From positions 1 through 33,616 of IMG/VR virus record IMGVR_UViG_3300044641_003476: DNA of 33,616 nucleotides; one strand, given 5' to 3'. The stretch's first letter is position 1, and each line of letters starts with the position of its first letter. The notes under the pieces were generated by a model, which saw nothing but the letters and a program-made list of their open reading frames with translations, was not told the DNA's origin and did no database searches. Made by a program: the position numbers and the translations under genes. Of this stretch, positions 2 to 27,966 are shown one piece after another. Source of the stretch: a virus.

Positions 2-275
2 GTGAGGACAGATACGATCCGCGGCGGTACAGGTAACGATACGATTCCCGGTGCCACTGTGAGGACAGATACGATCCGCGGCGGTACAGGTAACGATACG
101 ATTCCCGGTGCCACTGTAAACACGGATACGATCCGCGGCGGCGCAGGTAACGATACGATTCCCGGTGCCACTGTAAACACGGATACGATCCGCGGCGGCG
201 CAGGTAACGATACGATTCCCGGCTCGACTGTAAACACGGATACGATTCCCGGCTCCACTGTAAACACAAATACGA
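2..275 (+). repeat. 57-bp in-frame tandem repeat
   Basis: Four 57-bp units start at 2, 59, 116 and 173, followed by a shortened 30-bp unit at 230 and a decayed one at 260. Units 1-2 begin GTGAGGACAG and units 3-5 begin GTAAACACGG. Otherwise the full units are almost identical, so the array expanded recently. The period is a multiple of three, keeping the frame. The array runs off the left edge, so its full copy number is unknown. Confidence 0.95.
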
Positions 276-14016: not shown

Positions 14017-14337
14017 CTACGGTTTTATGTCAAGCCCCTTGTAAACGTCATCGAGAGAGCGGGCTAAGATATAGATTCCGCCGCGCCTTTCCCATGCAAG
14101 CTGCCACGCAGCCTGCACCTGACGCTGCTTACCGCGCTGTGCTTTCACCTCGATGGCAAACGCGCGACCGGGGGTAATGACACCCAGCAAGTCCGGGGTT
14201 CCCTCCGGCGCCGACTGAATCACGCGAGCCCCGCCGTCCAGAGGGCGGAACTTACCCACGTTGATGCGGAACATCATGATGTCCGTTCGCCGCCCCAGAG
14301 CGAGACGGATCTCGGCTTGGAGGATTGCTTCTTTCAT
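14017..14337 (-). CDS. VRR-NUC domain nuclease (106 aa)
   Basis: The start at 14337 makes an ATGA overlap with the upstream stop, so I prefer it over the ATG five codons earlier. The small single-domain protein shows the VRR-NUC pattern: NVGKFRPLDGG, then GTPDLLG at residues 46-52, AIEVK at 61-65 and a downstream Gln-rich helix (QRQVQAAWQ). Asp49, Glu63 and Lys65 are the probable catalytic residues. Stand-alone VRR-NUC proteins in phages are thought to be structure-specific endonucleases, perhaps resolving recombination or replication branches. It sits directly upstream of the exonuclease/recT cassette. Confidence 0.88.
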   Translation of the reverse strand: MKEAILQAEIRLALGRRTDIMMFRINVGKFRPLDGGARVIQSAPEGTPDLLGVITPGRAFAIEVKAQRGKQRQVQAAWQLAWERRGGIYILARSLDDVYKGLDIKP

Positions 14338-14540
14338 GCCGTTGGCTTCCAATCAAGGATGTCATCGATTGAGATGTGTCGAACCTTAGGTTTCGTTTCA
14401 TCATACATAATATGTATGGCTACACCTTTGTCCGTTTTTTCAAATGCAATCTTAGCGGGTATGCAGGGGCCGGTGGTAATCCACTCTCTCATAAGCCTCT
14501 CAGACTGCACGAGTAGCCACTCTTCAAAATCGGTACTCAT
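14334..14540 (-). CDS. Hypothetical small protein (68 aa)
   Basis: ATGA overlaps at both ends (14537-14540 and 14334-14337) fix the start and show tight coupling. The sequence MSTDFEEWLLVQSERLMREW begins with an amphipathic helix, followed by a short beta-rich segment and HISIDDILDWKPTA. I do not recognise a family. Its place between a hypothetical gene and the VRR-NUC nuclease suggests a DNA-metabolism accessory, but nothing in the sequence proves this. Confidence 0.7.
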   Translation of the reverse strand: MSTDFEEWLLVQSERLMREWITTGPCIPAKIAFEKTDKGVAIHIMYDETKPKVRHISIDDILDWKPTA

Positions 14541-15394
14541 GCCCGTGACTCCACCTTGTAATCCTTCACCACGATGCCGTCCGTGCCGTTGATCATCGCG
14601 GCTCTGACCCACGACTTGCGACCAGACTTGTATGTCCGCCAATGGCCACGACGCAGGTGAGCGACGGGTGATGCGTGTGTGCCGCCCTTGCTGACCTCCG
14701 ACACCCGGCGCTTCCCGGTGATCGTGATGACCTTGTAGGTGTAGAGCGGCTTCTTCCCACGAATCCGGCGCTGCCTTGCGGTCTCTGCGTCGGGACGGTG
14801 GTCGGTGAACTCGGTGTCGTATTCCGCCAGAGCCTTGCAGAAGTCCATGTAAACGGACAGTTCTTGGTTTAGGTTCCGCAACTCGTCGGTGATGTAGAGA
14901 TCCAAAGACATCCAGCTGCTAATCGCTCCATCCCACACCTCCCCCGCTGCAAGAATGTCGTCGGTGAGAGCCTTCGCCTCCGACCGGCTTAGCGTGATCT
15001 CCTTACCGTAGTAGAACCGCCAGTAGATCGCTGGCGGTATCCAGCAAGCTTTGTGGTCTCTAAAAAAGGCGGGGAAGAGCACGACGCTGTCACCCTCATC
15101 AACCGCCATAACCAAACGTTTTGAGGATCGAAATTCACCGGGCTTCAACACGCTGTCGGCTGTCACGAATTCAATAACGGTAGTTGGGAACGGTGGCTTC
15201 AACACATCTGTGGCTACGATCACGCTGTCACCAGAATCTGGCAGCACGTACCCGTCCTCAGGTAGTTTAAAGTGAACTGCATGTGACTGCAGCCGTTTGC
15301 GCAGCCGCCCGAAAAACGCAGCCCCCTGCGGCTTTGTTTTCATATACCGCGTCAGGTCATCGCAGAACTCATCCGAAAAATAACCGATGCTCAT
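14537..15394 (-). CDS. Hypothetical protein with C-terminal HLRRGHWR module (285 aa)
   Basis: ATGA overlaps join it to both neighbours. Residues 1-190 are a mixed alpha/beta domain I cannot name. The C-terminus contains VAHLRRGHWRTYKSGRKSWV followed by GTDGIVVKDY. This His/Arg-rich block ending near a Trp-Val is one I associate with conserved hypothetical proteins in phages and plasmids, probably a compact beta fold, but I know of no proven activity. Located between the helicase and the nucleases, it may act in replication or recombination. Confidence 0.7.
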   Translation of the reverse strand: MSIGYFSDEFCDDLTRYMKTKPQGAAFFGRLRKRLQSHAVHFKLPEDGYVLPDSGDSVIVATDVLKPPFPTTVIEFVTADSVLKPGEFRSSKRLVMAVDEGDSVVLFPAFFRDHKACWIPPAIYWRFYYGKEITLSRSEAKALTDDILAAGEVWDGAISSWMSLDLYITDELRNLNQELSVYMDFCKALAEYDTEFTDHRPDAETARQRRIRGKKPLYTYKVITITGKRRVSEVSKGGTHASPVAHLRRGHWRTYKSGRKSWVRAAMINGTDGIVVKDYKVESRA

Positions 15395-18176: not shown

Positions 18177-18404
18177 TCAGTCAAGACGCCAAACGCGGAC
18201 GCCATGTTCAGCATTACGCACAACAAACTTACGACTCAAACGACGACCAGCGTGTGACGCAGTGCTACTCATCGAGCGCAGCTTCGCGCCGTCAACGAAG
18301 AAGCTCTGGCCCACATTCAGTTCGTTCCAAGGATACTTCGCCCGGCGCTTGCGGGGTTGCCGCTCCGCAGGGATCTCGTAACCATCTTCAATTTTAAACA
18401 TCAT
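18177..18404 (-). CDS. DUF7303-like small phage protein (75 aa)
   Basis: GGAGG lies five bases before the ATG at 18404, which I prefer over the ATG seven codons earlier. The conserved core is KYPWNELNVGQSFFVDGA, then SSTASHAGRRLSRKFVVRN and GVRVWR. I recognise this as the widespread small phage family 'KYPw..m.vGdSFfv...GvrvwR' (DUF7303, from memory). Its function is unknown. The second half may be a small DNA-binding or regulatory fold. Confidence 0.75.
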   Translation of the reverse strand: MMFKIEDGYEIPAERQPRKRRAKYPWNELNVGQSFFVDGAKLRSMSSTASHAGRRLSRKFVVRNAEHGVRVWRLD

Positions 18405-18454
18405 TCTGTCCTCCGGTTTTTTCATACTCTACGGGTTCTACCCGCCGTTTCAAC

Positions 18455-18619
18455 TCATAAATCACGGCGCAAACGTTCTTCTTTGAATATTTTTTCAGCC
18501 TCTGAACGACTCACACCATACGTATACGCCAACTCGTGCGGCTCGCGCGTCATCAGCACATCATCAGGCCAAGCACGCACCATCTTACGCGCTAAATCCT
18601 GCCCGCTAACCTTCTTCAT
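18455..18619 (-). CDS. Small HTH-like protein (54 aa)
   Basis: The start makes an ATGA overlap with the primase-helicase stop at 18616-18619. The protein is basic. LAYTYGVSRSEAEKIFKEER at residues 30-49 has the spacing of a helix-turn-helix with the turn at GVS. A DNA-binding or regulatory role is plausible but not proven. Confidence 0.6.
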   Translation of the reverse strand: MKKVSGQDLARKMVRAWPDDVLMTREPHELAYTYGVSRSEAEKIFKEERLRRDL

Positions 18620-21021
18620 CGGTCCCATACCCCTACTGGCCACTCTTCCTTCGGCATAAAAATCGCGCGCGACATCGTCCCCTTGAAGTAGACCGAGTTT
18701 ACGCTCCTCTTCGCGGCAGGGTGGCGCAACAACACGCCCACCCATCCCTCGTGATAGACCGACGCATCCATAATTCTATTCAGCGACGTGATGCTCTGGC
18801 CGATCCACACCCCCGTCGGAACGGCATACTCGCGCTCGACCTTCAGCCCGTAACGCGCCAGCGTGTCGTCGGCCACCTTCAGCCGCACATCCGAATGTTC
18901 ATCCATTTTAAAGCAGATCAGCAGCAGTTCCCCGATGGTCCGATCCTGCATGCCCTGCGCCGTCTCAACCCGCACCGTCGCCTGCACGATGTGATTCAGC
19001 AACACCTTGTCTTCACGTTCCGACTTCACCGTCAGGAACTCTTCAAGGTTTATCGTGCTCAGATAGTTCTCGCACTGCTTCATATCCAATTTCTTCGTGC
19101 TGTAGAGACTGTAGCACCCAGCCAGCAGCGTCCCAATCTGATCGCCGATGCGCCGGTTCGCCAGCACCGTGGCAATCGTCTCCTTAAAGACCGAGATGTT
19201 GTGGCGCAGCGTGAACAGGTTTTCCAACTGGCGCGTCAGTAGCCGCTGCGGCATGTCTTTCGGGATCTCCAAGGTCATGGCCACGAAGTCTTTGAAGTCC
19301 TCTTCCCTCTTGCGCCGCTCCTCAGCCGTGAACGACTCCAGCGGCCTGATCGTCAGCACCGCCGTGCGTGTCAGGTCGGCAGCTTCCTTAAGACCCACGC
19401 CAATCGAAGACATCAGGAACGACGACCGCATCGTGAACGAATGCCCCTGATGGTTCGCAGACCCCTTCAGAATCCGTCCCCGGGTCTCGCTCGACGACTG
19501 CCGCATCAGATCCATCACGGCCTTACGACGCGCCGCCGAAGCCATCTTGGCCTCTTTGTCGCCATTCTCCGCTTCGTCGAACACCACCGGTATCGAATCG
19601 TTCCCGATCCATTGCCGGATACCGGCCTCGGTCGTGGCGCCCAAAGGGTAAATCGCCACGGTTCCGAGAAACATCCCCACCATTTCCACGACCGTGGACT
19701 TCCCTGAACCTTGGTTTCCCGTGAGCCACACGTGCGTTCGCCAGTCCAGTCCGCCGCACACCACAGCCGTCGCAATCCAGCCGGCCAGCAGGTCGCCGTG
19801 AATCGGCGCTTCCCAGCGCACCTTGTTGCACAGTTCGCGGATCATGCGGCCATCGTCGTCGGTCGCGCGCACGTCAAACTTATCGACATCCAAGATCAGG
19901 TCGGCTTCCATCGTGTAGTTGTAACGGCTCTTCAGTCGGACGTGCTTCACCTCTCGCGTCTCACAGTCGGGACGCGCCACCAGCAGCTTATTCCCGGAGT
20001 TCAGGATAGCTCGCGGCCCATCCTTGTCGTCCATCCAGACGCCCCGTCCGCGCAGGCGGCCCGGGTGATACACGCCGACATCATCGCACTGCTTGATTAC
20101 CTTTGAACCAGCTTCTTCCCAGTCGATGCTTTTGATGTCCGTTTTCCCCTGCAGCCACGCCCAGTGGTTTTTATCGGAATGAACCGCTAGGCACCCAGCC
20201 TTCGTCCGCAGGCGGTCAATGTGAAACTCAATCACCTGCTGCCGATTCTGTAGATGCAAATAATACGTGTCGTGGTCAAAGCCCAGCGGACGCCACTCGC
20301 GTGCGGCATTCTCGTCGGGATCTTCAATCGCCTCAACCGCTGCAACCGTCGCCTCAGGCACCGCCGCGCGCTTCAGTTCCCGGCGCATGATGTCCGTGAT
20401 CTGCTGCGGCTTCACCTTCAACGGCAGCGCATCGGCCAGATCCCAGCCGTCCGGGAACACCACGCTCAGGGTCACAATCGACACCGGCACGCGCTGCTCA
20501 CCCAGTATCTTCTGGATCTCCAGCGCCGCCTCGATGCCCGGCGTGTCGTTGTCCGGCCAGACCACGCAGCTATGCCCAGCCAGCAGGCTCCAGTCCGTCT
20601 GGTCGACAGCCTTCGCCCCGCCCTGCCACGTCGTAATGACCCAGCCCTCAGGCACATATTGCGCTGCAGCATCGGCAGCCTTCTCGCCCTCGACGATCAG
20701 CACCGGGCAGGTCGGCGACGCCGCCAACAGGTCGCCGTTATACAGCGGTCGCCCCTTGCCAAACCCGGACGTGATAAACTTCTTGCCGTCCCAGACAATC
20801 GGGCGGATCTCTTTACGCGCACCCGGCGGATTCCACCGTGCCACCGCCCCAAACGCGGCGCCATCAGCCATGCGGTAAATCCACATCGCATCAGGCTCCG
20901 GGCCGAGAGACTTCCGCAGCGAGTCCGGGATCACCACCGGCTCAGGCATCGGCGTGACAATCTCGGCCTTAGCCGTGATGTCCTCAGCAATCGCCAGCGC
21001 CTTCAGGTCTACTTTACGCAT
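18616..21021 (-). CDS. Phage primase-helicase (TOPRIM plus AAA-type ATPase), 801 aa
   Basis: The N-terminal part has TOPRIM-like motifs: LIVEGEKAADAA (catalytic-type Glu near residue 111), WPDNDTPG at 155-162, and DLADAL at 194-199. The C-terminal part is an ATPase with Walker A GNQGSGKST at 435-443 and Walker B PVVFDEAE at 478-485, followed by helical segments typical of phage replication ATPases. The usual zinc-binding primase domain is absent from this chain and is supplied by the gene just upstream, overlapping by eight bases. Likely role: priming and unwinding at the phage replication fork. Catalytic priming activity is inferred. Confidence 0.85.
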   Translation of the reverse strand: MRKVDLKALAIAEDITAKAEIVTPMPEPVVIPDSLRKSLGPEPDAMWIYRMADGAAFGAVARWNPPGARKEIRPIVWDGKKFITSGFGKGRPLYNGDLLAASPTCPVLIVEGEKAADAAAQYVPEGWVITTWQGGAKAVDQTDWSLLAGHSCVVWPDNDTPGIEAALEIQKILGEQRVPVSIVTLSVVFPDGWDLADALPLKVKPQQITDIMRRELKRAAVPEATVAAVEAIEDPDENAAREWRPLGFDHDTYYLHLQNRQQVIEFHIDRLRTKAGCLAVHSDKNHWAWLQGKTDIKSIDWEEAGSKVIKQCDDVGVYHPGRLRGRGVWMDDKDGPRAILNSGNKLLVARPDCETREVKHVRLKSRYNYTMEADLILDVDKFDVRATDDDGRMIRELCNKVRWEAPIHGDLLAGWIATAVVCGGLDWRTHVWLTGNQGSGKSTVVEMVGMFLGTVAIYPLGATTEAGIRQWIGNDSIPVVFDEAENGDKEAKMASAARRKAVMDLMRQSSSETRGRILKGSANHQGHSFTMRSSFLMSSIGVGLKEAADLTRTAVLTIRPLESFTAEERRKREEDFKDFVAMTLEIPKDMPQRLLTRQLENLFTLRHNISVFKETIATVLANRRIGDQIGTLLAGCYSLYSTKKLDMKQCENYLSTINLEEFLTVKSEREDKVLLNHIVQATVRVETAQGMQDRTIGELLLICFKMDEHSDVRLKVADDTLARYGLKVEREYAVPTGVWIGQSITSLNRIMDASVYHEGWVGVLLRHPAAKRSVNSVYFKGTMSRAIFMPKEEWPVGVWDR

Positions 21022-22095: not shown

Positions 22096-22340
22096 ATTTC
22101 CCCCTCCCAATCGATTCCGTCAGTCAGTCCGTAAATCGCGTCACGCAAATCCTTCGGCAGCGCCGCCGCATCCACAGACACGCCCAGTATCTCAAGCTCA
22201 TCTATCTCAGCGGTCTCCTGCACAGGCTCCCACCATGATGGTGAGCGCGGCACACCGTAGTCGGCGCGCTCCATCTGGCAGACGAACGTCACCCGCAGGT
22301 CGTCGCTCTCGTATGTCGCAGTCGCAATCATCTCATTCAC
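22092..22340 (-). CDS. Hypothetical small acidic protein (82 aa)
   Basis: It is joined by ATGA overlaps on both sides (22337-22340 and 22092-22095). The first half looks beta-rich (MIATATYESDDLRVTFVCQM) and the second is strongly acidic (ETAEIDELEILGVSVDAAAL) and ends DGIDWEGEI. The acidity would suit a DNA mimic or an interaction partner of the host, but there is no direct sign of this. Confidence 0.65.
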   Translation of the reverse strand: MNEMIATATYESDDLRVTFVCQMERADYGVPRSPSWWEPVQETAEIDELEILGVSVDAAALPKDLRDAIYGLTDGIDWEGEI

Positions 22341-22756
22341 TCCGTCACGGTGATAAAACTTCTCGTCGGTATCAGCACCACGCGCTCGACATCGCGGCTG
22401 TCGCCCCGGTCATAGCGGCCCCCGGTGGATACCGTGTGTTCGACAGGCACCTGAACGATGCCCAGTTCATCCGTCCACTGCACCGCCAGCAGGGCGTCAG
22501 CGCCCCTCGCGTCGATGGCGCAGAGCGCATTGTATTTATGCTCACTCAGCAGATAGGTTTCGTATCGCGCGCGCTCATTCCTACGCACTTTGATCTCAAC
22601 GACACGGGGTCTCGGCTGGCGGCGGAACACGACATCGTATGGAGCGAACGGGTCTCTGGGCGCAGTGGCCGTCAACCCGAAAGCGCGCTCCAGCTTGGCG
22701 ATGACGCCCGCCTGATTGGCGCGATCCGCATCGCTTTCGTAGACGGGTCGCGTCAT
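22337..22756 (-). CDS. PD-(D/E)XK nuclease-like protein (139 aa)
   Basis: The start at 22756 makes an ATGA overlap with the HTH gene; an upstream in-frame extension is dismissed because it lies inside that gene. Sequence pattern: ANQAGVIAKLERAFG, then PYDVVFRRQPRPRVVEIKVR, with Asp41, Glu54 and Lys56 in the order and spacing of the nuclease core. A conserved-looking helix follows (ETYLLSEHKYNAL). It could be a Holliday-junction or structure-specific nuclease. It is the third nuclease fold in the window. Confidence is moderate because the core is short. Confidence 0.65.
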   Translation of the reverse strand: MTRPVYESDADRANQAGVIAKLERAFGLTATAPRDPFAPYDVVFRRQPRPRVVEIKVRRNERARYETYLLSEHKYNALCAIDARGADALLAVQWTDELGIVQVPVEHTVSTGGRYDRGDSRDVERVVLIPTRSFITVTE

Positions 22757-23226
22757 TCCCCCTTCTCCTTCTTCATCTGCCTCAGGTGGCCCATGCTCCG
22801 CGCTCGACCATTCGCCACAGCCCGCGCGTGTATCTCTGGCCGGTTCTTCTTCAGCGCCTCGCCAAATCTCGATAGACAGCCCCAGCCACACGCCCGCCCC
22901 AGTTCCGAGAGAGTCAACGTCTCGTCATACTGGCCCGGCGCCGGCAGCGTTCTCGGCCCACGAGGGCGGTGCAGCCCCGTGTCCTTGCGCCACAACCGGA
23001 CAGTCTCTCGATCCACGTCCAGCCGCTGCGCCAGTTCCTCATTGCTGCGATCCGCTAGCGCCGGGAAAATCTCCGGCACCGGGGTTCCCCGCGCAATCAC
23101 CGCCTTCACCTGCGACAGGTGCGCCCGCGCTTTCTCAGACAGGCGCACAGGCGTCAGCTTCTGCCCATCCCACCACATAAATCTGCGGTCGTAGATGATC
23201 ACGCGCTTGCCTGTGCTTGCCTTCAC
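22753..23226 (-). CDS. HTH DNA-binding protein (157 aa)
   Basis: ATGA overlaps occur at both ends. The N-terminal strand-rich part (KRVIIYDRRFMWWDGQKLTP) is followed by a helix-turn-helix at about residues 60-85 (SNEELAQRLDVDRETVRLWR), and a second possible one, LSELGRACGWGCLSRFGEAL. The C-terminus is basic. It could be a regulator of the early operon or a replication accessory. No repressor-type dimerisation domain is evident. Confidence 0.7.
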   Translation of the reverse strand: MKASTGKRVIIYDRRFMWWDGQKLTPVRLSEKARAHLSQVKAVIARGTPVPEIFPALADRSNEELAQRLDVDRETVRLWRKDTGLHRPRGPRTLPAPGQYDETLTLSELGRACGWGCLSRFGEALKKNRPEIHARAVANGRARSMGHLRQMKKEKGE

Positions 23227-23877: not shown

Positions 23878-24149
23878 TTCAATTCCCCCTTCGCATTCGC
23901 AATTTGCCAGCGAGCATCGTCCTGATGCATTTCGTCTAGCCCGTCCCAAGACGGTGAGTCCCTAAACGCGCCATGCCTCTCAACCAGATGCTCCAGAGAC
24001 GCCAGTAACCGCACCGTAGTTAAATGCGCCCCCCTCAGGTCGTGCATTACCTCGCGCATATTGGCACCGGCCGGTGCCTCCAGCGCATCAGCTGCATAGG
24101 CCAACGCAAGCTCCACTTCACGTAGCGTCTTCGTAATAGACTTCGTCAT
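23874..24149 (-). CDS. Hypothetical helical protein, tandem paralogue A (91 aa)
   Basis: The start at 24149 follows the previous stop by one base, with GGGAG upstream. The sequence aligns along its length with the next gene upstream: TLREVELALAYAADALEAPA here against TLYSVNETLIDAADTLEGAA there, both continuing GA.MR and both ending ANAKGE. The two genes are therefore a tandem duplication. The fold is all helical; function unknown. Confidence 0.65.
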   Translation of the reverse strand: MTKSITKTLREVELALAYAADALEAPAGANMREVMHDLRGAHLTTVRLLASLEHLVERHGAFRDSPSWDGLDEMHQDDARWQIANAKGELK

Positions 24150-24150
24150 T

Positions 24151-24417
24151 TCACTCTCCCTTCGCATTCGCTAGCGCGGCCCTAATAGCCGCCAGCATCT
24201 CCGTGACACCTTCCTGCGTGTCATCATCCTCGAACCCGTCAATAAACGCCTCTGCCCGCTCCAGCGCCTCCAGCAGGTCAGAGACAGACACCCGCGCGGC
24301 CCTCGTTTCGCGAGCCAAGACGCGCATATATGCGCCAGCCGCGCCTTCCAGCGTGTCCGCTGCATCGATCAGCGTTTCATTAACGGAATACAGCGTGTCC
24401 AAAACATTCCGTTTCAT
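24151..24417 (-). CDS. Hypothetical helical protein, tandem paralogue B (88 aa)
   Basis: The start at 24417 makes an ATGA overlap with the DUF7249-like gene. It is a paralogue of the gene that follows, sharing the N-terminal AAD.LE..AGA.MR block, a central LL.ALE helix and the C-terminal ANAKGE. The divergence is large enough that the duplication is not recent. It is more acidic than its partner (IDGFEDDDTQEG). Function unknown. Confidence 0.65.
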   Translation of the reverse strand: MKRNVLDTLYSVNETLIDAADTLEGAAGAYMRVLARETRAARVSVSDLLEALERAEAFIDGFEDDDTQEGVTEMLAAIRAALANAKGE

Positions 24418-24674
24418 GCGTCCGCCTCCTCGCGCCAATCCTCGATCATGTGTTCCGCTATCTCGCGCCAGTTCACATCCGAGAGGAACGCCTCGGCATA
24501 GTCCAGCGCCAGCCCGGAAGCCTGTTCCGCCACCGTCTCCAGCGCCATCTCCCGCAGGCTCTGGCCCAGATCGTAGGCGTCCAGATCGTTATCCGACGCG
24601 CCGTCATAGCTGTCGAACATCTCCAGATTAACGCGCCATGTCGCGTAGTTCGTCCATCCGTTATATTCGCTCAT
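24414..24674 (-). CDS. Conserved phage protein, NGWTNYATW type (86 aa)
   Basis: The opening YNGWTNYATWRVNLEMFDSY matches the small phage family with N-G-W-x-N-Y-x-T-W near the start (DUF7249, from memory). The rest is acidic helix (LREMALETVAEQASGLALDY) ending DWREEADA. Joined by ATGA to the next gene. Function unknown in the family. Confidence 0.75.
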   Translation of the reverse strand: MSEYNGWTNYATWRVNLEMFDSYDGASDNDLDAYDLGQSLREMALETVAEQASGLALDYAEAFLSDVNWREIAEHMIEDWREEADA

Positions 24675-24675
24675 C

Positions 24676-24828
24676 TTAATTCCCCTTCGCTGTCGCGTTA
24701 AACCGCTGCAGCCACTGCAGCGCCGTCAAAACCTCATACCGCGCACGATCCACAGCACCCGCCGTCCGAGACGAAAACGTCTCCAGCACAGGCTTACCCG
24801 TCTCGCGGCTAACGATAATCCAACCCAT
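24676..24828 (-). CDS. Small conserved phage protein, MGWIIVSRETGKPV type (50 aa)
   Basis: GGGAGA lies upstream of the ATG. Sequence MGWIIVSRETGKPVLETFSS begins with two strands, then a helix (AGAVDRARYEVLTALQWLQR). The pattern 'ViV.reTGkPv.etFs.r..A' is familiar from small phage proteins. Function unknown. Confidence 0.65.
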   Translation of the reverse strand: MGWIIVSRETGKPVLETFSSRTAGAVDRARYEVLTALQWLQRFNATAKGN

Positions 24829-24841
24829 CACACAATCTCCC

Positions 24842-24919
24842 TCAGATAAGCGCCAGAACGGCGACGATGACTACCAGCGCGGCAACGGCCAGCGCGGATT
24901 GCAGGCGGCTTTCGGTCAT
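24842..24919 (-). CDS. Transmembrane micropeptide (25 aa)
   Basis: The ATGA overlap with the upstream stop (24916-24919) supports this very short frame. It reads MTESRLQS followed by ALAVAALVVIVAVLALI, a single membrane helix ending at the stop. Comparable to the 23-aa peptide at 21504. Membrane microproteins of this size in phages may modulate host membrane enzymes; no function is shown here. Confidence 0.5.
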   Translation of the reverse strand: MTESRLQSALAVAALVVIVAVLALI

Positions 24920-25227
24920 GCCGCACCCGCCTTCCGCAGCGCGTCCCGGACAATTTCGAATGTTCCGTTTGGATAACCGGCGCCGCTTTCGTTCATGGCC
25001 CATGCGTCCAGTTCCACCAGTGCCGCCAACAGATCAGGCGCGGCGGCAATCAGCGCGGCGTTGGCTGCTGCAATACCCTGATCACGGTTCGCCAAAACAT
25101 CCGTTGGCAGATTATTGACGGTGCAAATGTGACCGCCGATCATGTGGCCCAGCATCCGAATGTTATACTGGCGGTGCGTGTGGTCGCCCTCATACGTCCA
25201 CGGCCCCGGTGCGTGACCCCCGCTCAT
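24916..25227 (-). CDS. Conserved phage protein of the HAPGPWTYE type (103 aa)
   Basis: The start makes an ATGA overlap with the first gene of the operon. It has HAPGPWTYEG near the N-terminus and the ANAALIAAAPDLLAALVELD helix, an arrangement I know from a very common family of small phage and prophage proteins. The family has no established function. It ends with a helical segment (FEIVRDALRKAGAA). Confidence 0.8.
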   Translation of the reverse strand: MSGGHAPGPWTYEGDHTHRQYNIRMLGHMIGGHICTVNNLPTDVLANRDQGIAAANAALIAAAPDLLAALVELDAWAMNESGAGYPNGTFEIVRDALRKAGAA

Positions 25228-25523
25228 GCCGCCACCTTCAGCACATAACGGTCAACAATCGCCTGCGCGCGCTCCACCTGTTCCGCCGGGAAGTGTTCCG
25301 GGAAAGAAACGACCACGCACTGCGCGGCGCAATCCTCCTCATACCAGCACGACGAACCCGACCAGTAAGCCGCATAATCGCGCATTGCCTCCTGCACCCG
25401 GCCCAACAATTCCGGGCTTACCCAGATGCCGCCATGCGATGCAGTCGATACATACACGATGCCCTCTGCGATGGTCTCTTCGTCCTGCACAATGCCCCAA
25501 GGGCTGCTCTTACCAACAAACAT
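25224..25523 (-). CDS. DUF7007-like phage protein (99 aa); first gene of the leftward operon
   Basis: Pattern: SSPWGIVQDEETIAEGIVYV, then STASHGGIWVSPELL and CWYEEDCAAQCVVVSFPEHF. The W-G-x-x-Q, S-T-x-S-H-G-G and W-Y-E-E-D elements resemble the DUF7007 family (from memory). Function unknown. A GGGAG site precedes the start, and the AT-rich control region lies directly upstream, so this is probably the first gene transcribed leftwards. Confidence 0.75.
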   Translation of the reverse strand: MFVGKSSPWGIVQDEETIAEGIVYVSTASHGGIWVSPELLGRVQEAMRDYAAYWSGSSCWYEEDCAAQCVVVSFPEHFPAEQVERAQAIVDRYVLKVAA

Positions 25524-25671
25524 ACATGCTCCCTACGTTCAGCGGCTCGTCAAGAAACCGCTACGCATCCGTAATCGCGTCAGTGTTTTTCTGCAACTAC
25601 AATCAGCAGCATAAACGGATGTATTTATAACCGATGCCGGATTTATACGAAAATCAACGCAAGCCTGTATG

Positions 25672-25686
25672 ATACACTGTATCACA
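25672..25686. promoter_or_regulatory. Perfect 15-bp dyad TGATACACTGTATCA
   Basis: TGATACA and TGTATCA are perfect inverted arms around one central base, the form of a repressor operator. It lies about 150 bp upstream of the first gene of the leftward operon, and TATAAA (minus strand, 25649-25644) lies downstream of it in the direction of transcription. Confidence 0.55.
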
Positions 25687-25796
25687 AAACACCTAAGTCA
25701 CTGCAATCACACGGGAAAACCTATTTATTAAGAAACCCTTAATCATACGGACTAAGCCATTGAAAACGAACGAAACAAACGGAAAACGGCAAAAAA

Positions 25797-25813
25797 CATA
25801 CAGGGGCTGTATG
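25797..25813. promoter_or_regulatory. Perfect 17-bp dyad with CTGTATG arms
   Basis: CATACAG (25797-25803) and CTGTATG (25807-25813) are perfect inverted arms around GGG. The arms share the CTGTAT core with the other dyad and with three isolated copies at 25911, 26022 (inverted) and 26095. Confidence 0.55.
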
Positions 25814-26138
25814 ATTGATAACCTCTTCAAAACACAGGACAAAACGGCCGTTAATGTGAAAATAAAACGGATTTTAAAAATATAGAGCCCTATAGATATA
25901 GCCATACCCCCTGTATTAGTTAACCAACACATTAAAAATCCTACTGGGGTTATATATTTATTTTCTGTTTTATTTATAATAATAATAAGGAAAAGAGATA
26001 TAAAAACAAAGGCTTGGGACTCATACAGAGGCCGTTTTATTTGGCGTTTTTCCGTTTGAAAAAACGTTTTATGCAATGAAATCAGCGGCTTAGACTGTAT
26101 TACTGCACGTTACGTTAAACCGGCGCTTCATCCGTTAA

Positions 26139-26314
26139 TTCAGCCGGGTGACAGGCTCTGGCGGCGGGTGGTGCTGAGCGATGTGCGGGCCGGCCTATGC
26201 TGTTCAACCGGGCCAGACATGCTCTGGCGGCATGGCCGATTTTAAAGCCCGCTGAACGCCGTTCGTGGCGTCCGGGCCTGCCTATGCGGTTCAATGCCGG
26301 ACAGGCGCTGCGCG
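26139..26314. repeat. Three GC-rich imperfect repeats
   Basis: Units begin at about 26139, 26203 and 26290. Units 1 and 2 share TTCA-CCGGG and an identical GCTCTGGCGGC. Units 2 and 3 share GCCTATGC-GTTCAA with one mismatch in fifteen. Spacing is 64 and 87 bp, so the array is not a simple coding repeat. An ACGCC/GGCGT hairpin lies at 26256-26271. Confidence 0.5.
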
Positions 26315-26340
26315 GTGCCTCTGGGGCGCTGCGGCAGGGC

Positions 26341-26371
26341 AAAAGAAAAGCCCGCCGGGTTAGGGCGGGCT
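26341..26371 (-). terminator. Intrinsic terminator of the small early block
   Basis: On the minus strand AGCCCGCC, a 7-base loop and GGCGGGCT form an 8-bp GC-rich stem followed directly by TTTTCTTTT (A-rich 26341-26349 on the plus strand). It lies 22 bp past the last gene of the block, in the right direction. Confidence 0.85.
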
Positions 26372-26392
26372 AGTGGGGGTGGGGCTGAGCTA

Positions 26393-26680
26393 TCAGGCGA
26401 TGCGCTGTATCCCCAGCCCTGATTTATCGCACCAAAGGCGATAGGTGGTGCCTGCCGGCGAGGCGAACGTGCCACCCCTCCCGGTTTGCCAGTAATCCTG
26501 TGCGCCCAGCCAAAGGCCCTTCTCGTGCACGTAACACCCGAATTCAAACATGCGGTGCAGGCGGCTGCCCCATGGGTGGGGGTTGATATACCGGGCTCGG
26601 CCCCCGTCGCGGGCGACTCGCTCGCTCTCGGCATAGCCTGCCTGCAATGCGGCGTAATCAGCGTTTGTCATCTTGGCCAT
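26393..26680 (-). CDS. Hypothetical early protein (95 aa)
   Basis: AGAGAGGAACCAGC precedes the ATG. The sequence begins with a helix (TNADYAALQAGYAESERVAR) and continues with an aromatic-rich segment (FEFGCYVHEKGLWLGAQDYW) containing several Trp and Tyr and ending at RLWCDKSGLG. This may be a small beta-rich ligand- or protein-binding fold. It is the last gene before the intrinsic terminator. No family recognised. Confidence 0.7.
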   Translation of the reverse strand: MAKMTNADYAALQAGYAESERVARDGGRARYINPHPWGSRLHRMFEFGCYVHEKGLWLGAQDYWQTGRGGTFASPAGTTYRLWCDKSGLGIQRIA

Positions 26681-26710
26681 GATGCTGGTTCCTCTCTTTG
26701 CGTTTCGACG

Positions 26711-27016
26711 TTAATAACGAACACCGGGGCATTCGGGCAGGTCAGCGACGATTGCCGCCAGAGGCTCCCAAGTAATGCCTTCGCGCCATGAAACGCCGTA
26801 GGTGCCATATTCCGACGTGGTGGCGGTGCAATGGCCCCAGCCATTGCGCGTGGTCATATCCCAAACGCTCTGCAAACGGTCGCGCAAAGCGTCGGGAGCG
26901 TCGGCGATACGTTCGGCCAAACGCGCGAGGGCTTGCGTCGGCGTGTCGCCAGTAACGTAAACCGGGCGATACTTGCCGAGAAAATAGGCGGAAGCGGTGT
27001 AGGTGGTGGTGCTCAT
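26711..27016 (-). CDS. Hypothetical early protein (101 aa)
   Basis: AAGGGAAAC precedes the ATG. The N-terminus looks beta-rich (TTYTASAYFLGKYRPVYVTG), followed by a helix (TQALARLAERIADAPDALRD) and a Gly/Trp-rich C-terminal part (GHCTATTSEYGTYGVSWREG). No catalytic motif. A GC-rich hairpin and a 16-bp palindrome lie just upstream. Confidence 0.68.
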   Translation of the reverse strand: MSTTTYTASAYFLGKYRPVYVTGDTPTQALARLAERIADAPDALRDRLQSVWDMTTRNGWGHCTATTSEYGTYGVSWREGITWEPLAAIVADLPECPGVRY

Positions 27017-27034
27017 GGTAATGTTTCCCTTGCT

Positions 27035-27073
27035 TCACATTGCAATGTGATGGGGGAGGTTCGCGCCTCCCCC
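27035..27073 (-). other. Intercistronic palindrome and GC hairpin
   Basis: TCACATTGCAATGTGA (27035-27050) is a perfect 16-bp palindrome. Next to it, GGGGGAGG (27052-27059) pairs with CCTCCCCC (27066-27073) across a 6-base loop. No T run follows on the minus strand, so it may be a weak terminator, an RNA-stability element or a processing site between two early genes. Confidence 0.6.
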
Positions 27074-27080
27074 GGTGTGG

Positions 27081-27308
27081 TCAGGCGGTCAGGCCGCAAG
27101 CCTCGATGAACCGGGTGCGGTCAAAGCGGGTGTTGTCGCTGTGCAGCTGGTCGGCCAGCCGCAACGCCACAGTGCGAACGCCTAGGCGCTCTCCAGCAAG
27201 TGCCGCGCGGGTGCTGGCGCAAACGGCCATAGGGGAGGACTCCCGCTCAATGTCGGCCAGTAGCTCGCTGATGGTGGCGGCAATCATCACATAATCTTTG
27301 CGTGTCAT
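27081..27308 (-). CDS. Conserved small phage protein, MTRKDYVMIA type (75 aa)
   Basis: AAAGGAACCAGAACC precedes the ATG at 27308. The sequence has MTRKDYVMIAATISELLADI at the start, a central Ala-rich helix (LGVRTVALRLADQLHSDN) and NTRFDRTRFIEACGL at the end. The opening and the F-D-R-x-R-F-x-x-A-C-G ending are a common phage pattern with unknown function. All helical. Confidence 0.78.
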   Translation of the reverse strand: MTRKDYVMIAATISELLADIERESSPMAVCASTRAALAGERLGVRTVALRLADQLHSDNTRFDRTRFIEACGLTA

Positions 27309-27333
27309 GGTTCTGGTTCCTTTCAGGGATGGT

Positions 27334-27534
27334 TCAGGCAAGGCCAAGCTTCTTGTGCGCGTCTTCCATGCTGCTGGCATAGAACCCGACGACCCTTCCG
27401 GGCATGGTTGTCGCTGGCCCGTTCAGGTAGCTCACCCAATATTCGCGGCCCGGAACGTTGCGTTGGCGTGGCCAATATGTGTCGCAGCAAAGCCAGAGGG
27501 TGCCGTCGGCTTGCTCAATGGTGGTGCGTGTCAT
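27334..27534 (-). CDS. Hypothetical early protein (66 aa)
   Basis: GAAAGGAACGACC precedes the ATG. It is short with several Trp, Tyr and Cys: LWLCCDTYWPRQRN, then REYWVSYLNGPATTMPGRVV and a final helix (ASSMEDAHKKLGLA). Likely a small beta-sheet domain with a C-terminal helix. The CC pair could bind a metal, but no partner ligands are obvious. Confidence 0.68.
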   Translation of the reverse strand: MTRTTIEQADGTLWLCCDTYWPRQRNVPGREYWVSYLNGPATTMPGRVVGFYASSMEDAHKKLGLA

Positions 27535-27555
27535 GGTCGTTCCTTTCGTGGTGGC

Positions 27556-27577
27556 GGGCCGGCGCTGTGGCCGGCCC
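27556..27577 (-). other. Intercistronic GC hairpin
   Basis: GGGCCGGC pairs perfectly with GCCGGCCC across a 6-base loop, the same 8-bp/6-base geometry as the hairpin at 27052-27073. It lies between two early genes, without a T run. Confidence 0.6.
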
Positions 27578-27585
27578 TGTGGTGG

Positions 27586-27789
27586 TTAGGCGTGGGCTTG
27601 GCCGGTGAGCTTTTCGATCAAAGCGGCGGCAGCGGCATAGTCGCCTTCGTAATGCTCTTGCATCGCGGCGTTGCCAGCCCGCGCACCCTTCAGGGCTTCA
27701 GCCCGCGCTTCATATGCTGCGGCGTTCAAAGCCATCTTGATGCGGAGATACTCGGCGAAGGTGACTTCGAGAGTGACTGAATTAAGCAT
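27586..27789 (-). CDS. Hypothetical early protein (67 aa)
   Basis: AAAGGGAACCAG directly before the ATG at 27789 sets the start. The protein is a short strand (LNSVTLEVTF) followed by two long Ala/Glu helices (EYLRIKMALNAAAYEARAEA and the region ending LIEKLTGQAHA). It is the first gene of the small early block. No known family. Confidence 0.68.
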   Translation of the reverse strand: MLNSVTLEVTFAEYLRIKMALNAAAYEARAEALKGARAGNAAMQEHYEGDYAAAAALIEKLTGQAHA

Positions 27790-27832
27790 CTGGTTCCCTT
27801 TCCACTCAGGCGGCACCGTTGCCGCGCCGCCA

Positions 27833-27860
27833 GAAATACCGCAATCAGCAATAGCGTCAA
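27833..27860 (-). promoter_or_regulatory. Candidate leftward promoter of the small early block
   Basis: Minus-strand TTGACG (27860-27855) and TATTTC (27838-27833) are separated by 16 bases, 44 bp upstream of the first gene. The -10 is weak. A second TTGACG lies just upstream. Confidence 0.35.
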
Positions 27861-27966
27861 CCGTAAACGTCAACAACCATCACCAGATGCGGACATATAT
27901 TCAGCCGGATGTGGTGCAATGCCCTGCCCGTTTCCGGCTGGGGGCGGCTCTGGCACTGCCCGCGCA

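Follow-up and report, generated by a model that had tools for sequence, protein, structure and literature searches.

Lambdoid O/ori pairs occur in different specificity types. In the satellite phage P4, the alpha protein joins primase and helicase to an origin-binding activity and recognises short repeats, and replication depends on two separate repeat regions, ori and crr. Among viral initiators, helicases with an attached origin-binding domain are common, and plasmids commonly autoregulate through iterons or repeats close to them. The lambda origin contains four iterons, and those of related phages six, next to an AT-rich tract that melts (PMC7466680). The RepA_N origin of the PLE, a phage satellite of Vibrio cholerae, is non-coding, carries repeats bound by a dedicated initiator, and has been described with GC skew beside coverage profiles (PMC7145576). 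The repressor of Cluster A mycobacteriophages acts at asymmetric sites, the stoperators, whose sequence varies between phage types (PMC6550527); stoperators are spread genome-wide and lie mostly in one orientation relative to transcription (PMC6550527; PMC9283540).

The window considered here is the whole of an IMG/VR virus record of 33,616 bp from an uncultured phage. It contains an AT-rich island (25615-26115) that most likely serves as the main origin of bidirectional (theta-type), iteron-type replication of this phage. No published description of the origin of this phage group was found in a limited search of the open literature.

The island resembles a lambdoid origin in having repeated, putative initiator sites beside an AT-rich tract. 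Its sites, however, are about 8 bp long, number about a dozen and lie on both sides of the core, whereas the lambda iterons are longer and lie on one side of the tract; and they are intergenic, about 5 kb from the candidate initiator gene, whereas gene O contains the lambda iterons. The early proteins scanned included none like O or P, and the features that define lambdoid O/ori (iterons in the initiator gene, O/P homologues) appear to be lacking. With P4 ori/alpha the island shares short repeats and a putative primase-helicase initiator; it differs in that one island holds both arms and that the primase zinc-ribbon and the helicase are encoded by separate genes. Like the PLE origin it is a non-coding repeat region, but the PLE has semi-palindromic direct repeats read by RepA_N, and no RepA_N protein was recognised here. 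Unlike the Cluster A stoperators, the sites are confined to one island, occur in both orientations and coincide with a switch of strand asymmetry; the distributed sites of a genome-wide repressor system do not seem to be present.

The AT-rich island and the switch of strand asymmetry

The island and two elements in or near it are as follows.

25615..26115, no strand: AT-rich intergenic island, proposed replication origin (from composition, place conserved in syntenic relatives, and GC-skew flip)
25949..26010, no strand: proposed DNA unwinding element, the least stable ~60 bp of the window by nearest-neighbour energy (TTATATATTTATTTTCTGTTTTATTTATAATAATAATAAGG)
26349..26371, minus: intrinsic-terminator-like hairpin, end of the leftward genes right of the island (inside 26304-26384)

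An earlier note on this DNA had called the region AT-rich, which is borne out by a GC content of about 0.38 (0.376 over 25501-26000) in a record of about 0.59. The nearest-neighbour energy of 25949-26010 is -58.6 kcal/mol per 60 bp, as against a mean of -92.0 and a next best value outside the island of -72.2, and the AT minimum lies at the same place in the loci of syntenic relatives. The proposed unwinding element adjoins repeat sites, as would be required of an iteron-type origin. The sole long ORF of the island (25693-26076, minus strand) is interrupted by stops in the relatives L006 and L007, and the island is therefore very probably non-coding; a gene inside it was rejected on the same ground. 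The island had no blastn match in cultured phages, and an Rfam search of the window returned nothing.

Leftward genes flank the island on both sides. The leftward early genes encode an SSB-like protein, RecT, a RecE-like nuclease, a helicase, a toprim/P-loop primase-helicase and a CHC2 zinc-ribbon protein, and the rightward late genes begin with the small terminase, the large terminase and the portal (the names SSB and small terminase are derived from sequence reading and gene order). The segment 26304-26384, which contains the terminator-like hairpin, matches many relatives at 77–93%. Since the hairpin ends the leftward genes on the right, the early operon on the left needs a promoter of its own within 25530-26340. 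Matches to a sigma-70-like promoter were not above chance (1 found, 1.7 expected), and no promoter was placed convincingly. Between the island and the terminator (26115-26340) the DNA is GC-rich and has imperfect repeats, e.g. ACAGGCTCTGGCG and CCTATGCNGTTCAA, with similar ones in relatives. The small leftward genes at 23900-25600 and 26400-27900 vary greatly, or give way to other genes, among genomes that are otherwise nearly identical, as if the island were flanked by two exchange zones.

The GC skew, which the earlier note had proposed to check, changes sign at the island. On the plus strand, in a survey of about 35 loci that include near-identical ones, it is -0.15 to -0.31 in the leftward genes left of the island, about 0 in the still-leftward genes on the right, and +0.08 to +0.31 in the late genes. 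The coding-strand GC3 skew of genes of the same direction is +0.28 on the left and -0.21 on the right in the window. The sign also reverses in three of the four long relatives (G001, G002 and G003), while the fourth, G004, has a value of 0 on the right, from few sites. In the long relatives the skew peaks near the island and declines with distance. Because gene direction is constant across the island, a change of replication strand would be the simplest cause of the switch. GC skew is indirect evidence, and transcription leaving the island in both directions, the chief competing cause, could contribute. The switch falls at the proposed site, where an iteron-type origin would require it.

Repeat sites and their arrangement

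The earlier note had reported seven CTGTAT copies in the island. All are present, at 25665, 25677, 25807, 25911 and 26095 on the plus strand and at 25798 and 26023 on the minus strand; two of the positions given, 25667 and 25679, were 2 bp off, and the remaining five were exact. With local dinucleotide-preserving shuffles (2000) as the chance model for motif counts, seven copies in 25615-26115 compare with 0.2 expected, and none of the shuffles reaches seven. The same description included two perfect dyads, TGATACACTGTATCA (25670-25684) and CATACAGGGGCTGTATG (25797-25813), repeated AAAACGG (4 copies, 0.25 expected), and the inverted arms AAATAAAACGG/CCGTTTTATTT at 25860-25870 and 26032-26042, separated by 161 bp, all of which were recovered. 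Two dyads with 7-bp arms have a P of about 0.05 in shuffles on their own. The hexamer AAAACG occurs in 8 copies, a number matched by no shuffle.

The cluster thus stands, but CTGTAT does not hold as its unit, which is a site of about 8 bp, T-NNN-ACRG. This site takes in the AAAACGG copies and the imperfect relatives of CTGTAT. In the window it has the forms CATACRG, AATACAG and TAAAACRG, in about 12 copies; the pattern ATACRG or TAAAACRG gives 11 copies with 0.7 expected, and is equalled in none of the 2000 shuffles. The sites, and the copies of a second module beside several of them, are listed below.

25665..25671, minus: word site CATACAG, left arm
25671..25677, plus: word-like site GATACAC, left half of the perfect dyad TGATACA-C-TGTATCA (25670-25684)
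25677..25683, minus: word site GATACAG, right half of the dyad 25670-25684
25694..25704, plus: second module, copy 1
25744..25750, plus: word site CATACGG, abutting second-module copy TAAGCCATTGA
25753..25763, plus: second module, copy 2 (TAAGCCATTGA)
25797..25803, plus: word site CATACAG, left half of the dyad CATACAG-GGG-CTGTATG; mirror partner is the 26032-26039 site
25807..25813, minus: word site CATACAG, right half of the dyad CATACAG-GGG-CTGTATG; mirror partner is the 26022-26028 site
25863..25870, plus: word site TAAAACGG, left inner core site; by-eye alignment pairs it with AATGAAACGG in clade 2 and AATGTCACGG in clade 3
25911..25917, minus: word-like site AATACAG, centre (CCCCCTGTATTA); changed in L004
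25965..25972, minus: word site TAAAACAG, right inner core site, inside the unwinding element; by-eye alignment pairs it with CGTTTCATTTATAAT in clade 2 and CGTTACATTTATAAA in clade 3
26006..26016, minus: second module, copy 3 (CAAGCCTTTGT)
26022..26028, plus: word site CATACAG, right arm; its offset matches that of the clade 2 and clade 3 sites at +104 to +108
26032..26039, minus: word site TAAAACGG, right arm
26082..26092, minus: second module, copy 4 (TAAGCCGCTGA)
26095..26101, minus: word site AATACAG, right arm; its offset matches that of the clade 2 and clade 3 sites at +174 to +179

The second module has the consensus YAAGYCNNTGN (in another form the last base is A, YAAGYCNNTGA) and is common to clades 1 to 3. 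The dyad at 25670-25684 is kept in L006, occurs in L007 with GATACAG on the left, and has an altered centre in L003, L004 and L035. The arms of the CATACAG dyad are invariant in six clade-1 sequences, and its 3-bp spacer varies (GGG/TGA/TGG). Near-identical short sites are thus clustered in one apparently non-coding region, as in an iteron-type origin.

On the minus strand the 25797-25813 dyad (CATACAGCCCCTGTATG) is followed by TTTTTT (the A run 25791-25796) and scores as terminator-like. This character may be incidental, because L004 has an interrupted T run and no such dyad occurs in clade 2.

The sites form two arms around an AT-rich core of about 100 bp that holds the least stable DNA of the window, with an axis near 25917. 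On the right arm, lineages whose words differ share offsets from the axis, at +48..54, +104..110, +110..116, +128..135 and +174..179 (typically about +49, +107, +114, +133 and +177). Mirror symmetry was assessed with the axis fixed by the inner site pair and only pairs beyond that axis-defining pair counted. The window has two extra pairs (P 0.016), L009 two (0.007), L012 four (0.0004) and L094 two (0.036); mirror pairs are not above chance in L033, L039 and L058, and there are none in L007, L048 and L085, in which another inner pair was picked by the rule. If the axis is left free, the symmetry of the window by itself does not reach significance (P 0.15). Mirror symmetry is therefore supported as a tendency of these arrays, not as a proven rule.

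Words of related lineages and the early cassette

The primase-helicase and the large terminase served as queries for relatives, followed by two distant terminases. In about 30 IMG/VR relatives the AT-rich island occupies the same place, with site positions largely kept. In unbiased 7-mer counts, each lineage has one dominant non-AT word in its islands, present in 8–12 copies per island (840 bp) and rare elsewhere in the genomes; these own-lineage words include CATACAG, TGAAACAG, TGTCACGG and TGTAACAG. The closest relatives of the window are L003, L004, L006, L007 and L035. The word TGAAACR is found in L009, L011, L012, L013, L020, L022, L061 and L033; TGTCACR in L039, L042, L045, L047, L048, L049, L055, L058 and L072; TGTGACR in L077; and TGTAACR in L084, L085, L094, L096 and L102, and also in L130 and L136-L138. 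In L093 the island is present and the word is less clear. Two cultured phages with helicases of about 32% identity have no comparable island, and a TerL search of genome contigs gave two short contigs only, binned to an alphaproteobacterial and an actinomycetotal MAG.

By eye, one homologous place reads AATAAAACGG in the window, AATGAAACGG in clade 2 and AATGTCACGG in clade 3, and a second reads CTGTTTTATTTATAAT, CGTTTCATTTATAAT and CGTTACATTTATAAA, respectively. On this comparison between lineages, the unit is T-NNN-ACRG, with a lineage-specific middle and a constant ACR end, CTGTAT being part of the version in the window. The absence of CTGTAT from relatives had been named beforehand as grounds for refutation. 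It is indeed missing from most of them, because the whole array there carries another word; an array-wide change of this kind speaks for function rather than against it, and would follow if the repeats and their reading protein changed in step.

Such a protein may be sought in an early cassette at 18.15-20.4 kb, made up of the genes for the DUF7303 protein and the small HTH protein and of the part encoding the C-terminal three quarters of the primase-helicase.

18177..18425, minus: DUF7303 protein gene, cassette member changing with the word
18455..18745, minus: small basic protein, HTH match weak and start uncertain, cassette member
18616..21021, minus: primase-helicase, toprim and P-loop, 801 aa, candidate initiator

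Genomes that are 94–100% identical elsewhere diverge sharply at the island and at this cassette. Between the window and G002, identity is 94–100% over most of 11.4-22.9 kb and 27.9-32.6 kb, with the exception of a segment absent near 14.4-15.4 kb and lower identity around 15.4-16.2 kb; it is 69–81% at 18.15-20.15 kb, and the island is unalignable or 71% identical. Taking G002, L009 and L013 together, identity to the window is 67–84% at 18.15-20.15 kb and the island is strongly diverged; L009 and L013 also show further differences of their own. L004, L006 and L007, which have the word of the window, are 81–100% identical to it at both cassette and island. Gene by gene, only the DUF7303, small HTH and primase-helicase genes split clade 1 from clade 2, except that L022 departs from this split in helicase residues 1-244, which are mostly toprim.

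Within the primase-helicase, residues ~200-801 change with the word and the toprim part (1-200) does not. Residues 1-200 are 88–100% identical for most clade-2 members and 85–92% in G001; identity falls to 40–62% in residues 241-320, and 8 of the 27 fixed differences between clades 1 and 2 lie in residues 251-300. Residue 761 (V/S/A/T) and, more weakly, residue 447 separate all four word classes, which among some 800 columns is a lead only. A PDB sequence search with the helicase gave no hit, and a fold prediction of its residues 195-430 was confident only over ~245-316, with no fold match.

No single protein feature tracks the word perfectly. L009 and G002 have the same word and different helicase residues 241-320, and G001 combines a small HTH helix almost the same as in clade 1 with the word of clade 2. 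The small HTH protein was accordingly rejected as sole reader. Also rejected as readers were TerS, SSB, RecT, the RecE-like nuclease and the CHC2 protein, which are 98–100% identical to those of G002 although the word differs, and a 157-aa HTH protein (22753-23226), which matches its G002 homologue at 95% identity across the same difference of word. Because no one protein fits the word simply, the whole cassette is the candidate, and the reader is somewhat likely to be encoded there. Within it the primase-helicase itself is favoured, because helicases with origin-binding domains are common viral initiators; that it is the reader is a tentative proposal.

Proposed mechanism and alternative readings

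The earlier note had left the choice between an iteron-type origin, a multi-site operator, or both. The origin is favoured by the AT-rich, easily melted DNA, the dense sites, the skew switch independent of gene direction and the conserved place; it is well supported, while the reader is one that we infer. In the proposed mechanism, a phage initiator would bind the sites cooperatively from both sides and melt the stretch TATATATTTATTTT...TTTATAATAATAATAAGG, and two helicases would be loaded pointing outward. The best candidate reader would be the primase-helicase, through residues ~200-400 and/or its C-terminus, perhaps assisted by the small HTH or the DUF7303 protein. Changes of word would separate types of origin specificity, as lambdoid O/ori pairs do. 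The full combination, in which the primase-helicase is the origin-binding initiator of a two-armed, mirror-symmetric array of 8-bp sites, and island and cassette, about 5 kb apart, are swapped as a two-part unit, is put forward as possible rather than probable. If it is true, at least five lineages with different origin words may be replication-compatibility groups.

Phage origins are rarely located in uncultured phages, and here comparative data would place one to a few hundred bases. Between genomes that hardly differ elsewhere, the origin words change as a set at positions that are conserved, and a helicase cassette changes with them; in this clear case origin-initiator specificity would be directly testable with a set of natural specificity variants. 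An AT minimum, a cluster of a lineage word and a GC3-skew reversal may together offer a route to finding origins in metagenomes.

The same sites may also modulate a leftward early promoter in the intergenic stretch. An initiator that represses its own operon through these sites, like plasmid Rep at its iterons, would be an addition to the origin reading and not exclusive of it, and is a reasonable possibility that falls short of being probable: the sites cover the only space for the early promoter and the left operon carries the candidate initiator, but no promoter was convincingly placed, and an overlap of the sites with -35/-10 elements is hypothetical.

That a host protein reads the words, and that word changes follow changes of host, is unlikely. 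It would accommodate the lack of a phage protein that tracks the word perfectly. However, a host factor does not predict that the word and an early phage cassette change together while the rest remains mostly 94–100% identical, and the window has no perfect DnaA box (0 exact matches to TTATNCACA, exact matches only being counted).

Less likely still is a multi-site operator only, at which a phage repressor or activator would control the leftward early promoter with no origin function. The island does lie upstream of the early operon and beyond the terminator-like hairpin, so that the promoter must be there; the dyads resemble operators; and type-specific words of repressor sites are known from Cluster A mycobacteriophages (PMC6550527). 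This reading leaves unexplained the reversal of GC and GC3 skew and the strongest AT minimum at the island. Moreover, in the window and four long relatives no CI-like HTH_3 match exceeded the cut-off (only weak sub-threshold HTH matches were seen) and no integrase was found, the sigma-70-like matches are at the level of chance, and the 157-aa HTH protein hardly differs from its G002 homologue despite the different word.

A packaging (pac/cos) site read by the small terminase is very improbable: the repeat cluster lies about 2 kb from terS-terL and such sites can hold repeated terminase-binding words, but the window and G002 have completely different words and a TerS of 98% identity, the island is outside terS, and the skew reversal would be unexplained. 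An attP with arm-type integrase sites, which two short-site arms flanking an AT-rich core recall in the outline of lambda attP, is hardly credible and largely refuted, given no tyrosine recombinase (PF00589) in the window and ten relatives and no serine recombinase (PF00239) in the window and six relatives (controls positive in both searches), no lysogeny genes recognised, and a skew that favours an origin.

Some minor observations concern the remainder of the genome. The early operon also encodes a predicted PDDEXK_14 phage nuclease at 22337-22891 (Pfam E 2e-22). The primase-helicase of L015 has an in-frame stop in the blast-aligned reading, which is either an assembly error or a real disruption. 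At 14334-15394 lie two genes for proteins of 102 and 285 aa without a family match, which L004, L009 and G001 have and G002, L007, L011 and L013 lack. G002 (L108-L110; 54,968 bp) has a 123-bp terminal direct repeat and may therefore be a complete genome of about 55 kb, in which case the window would represent about 60% of its own.
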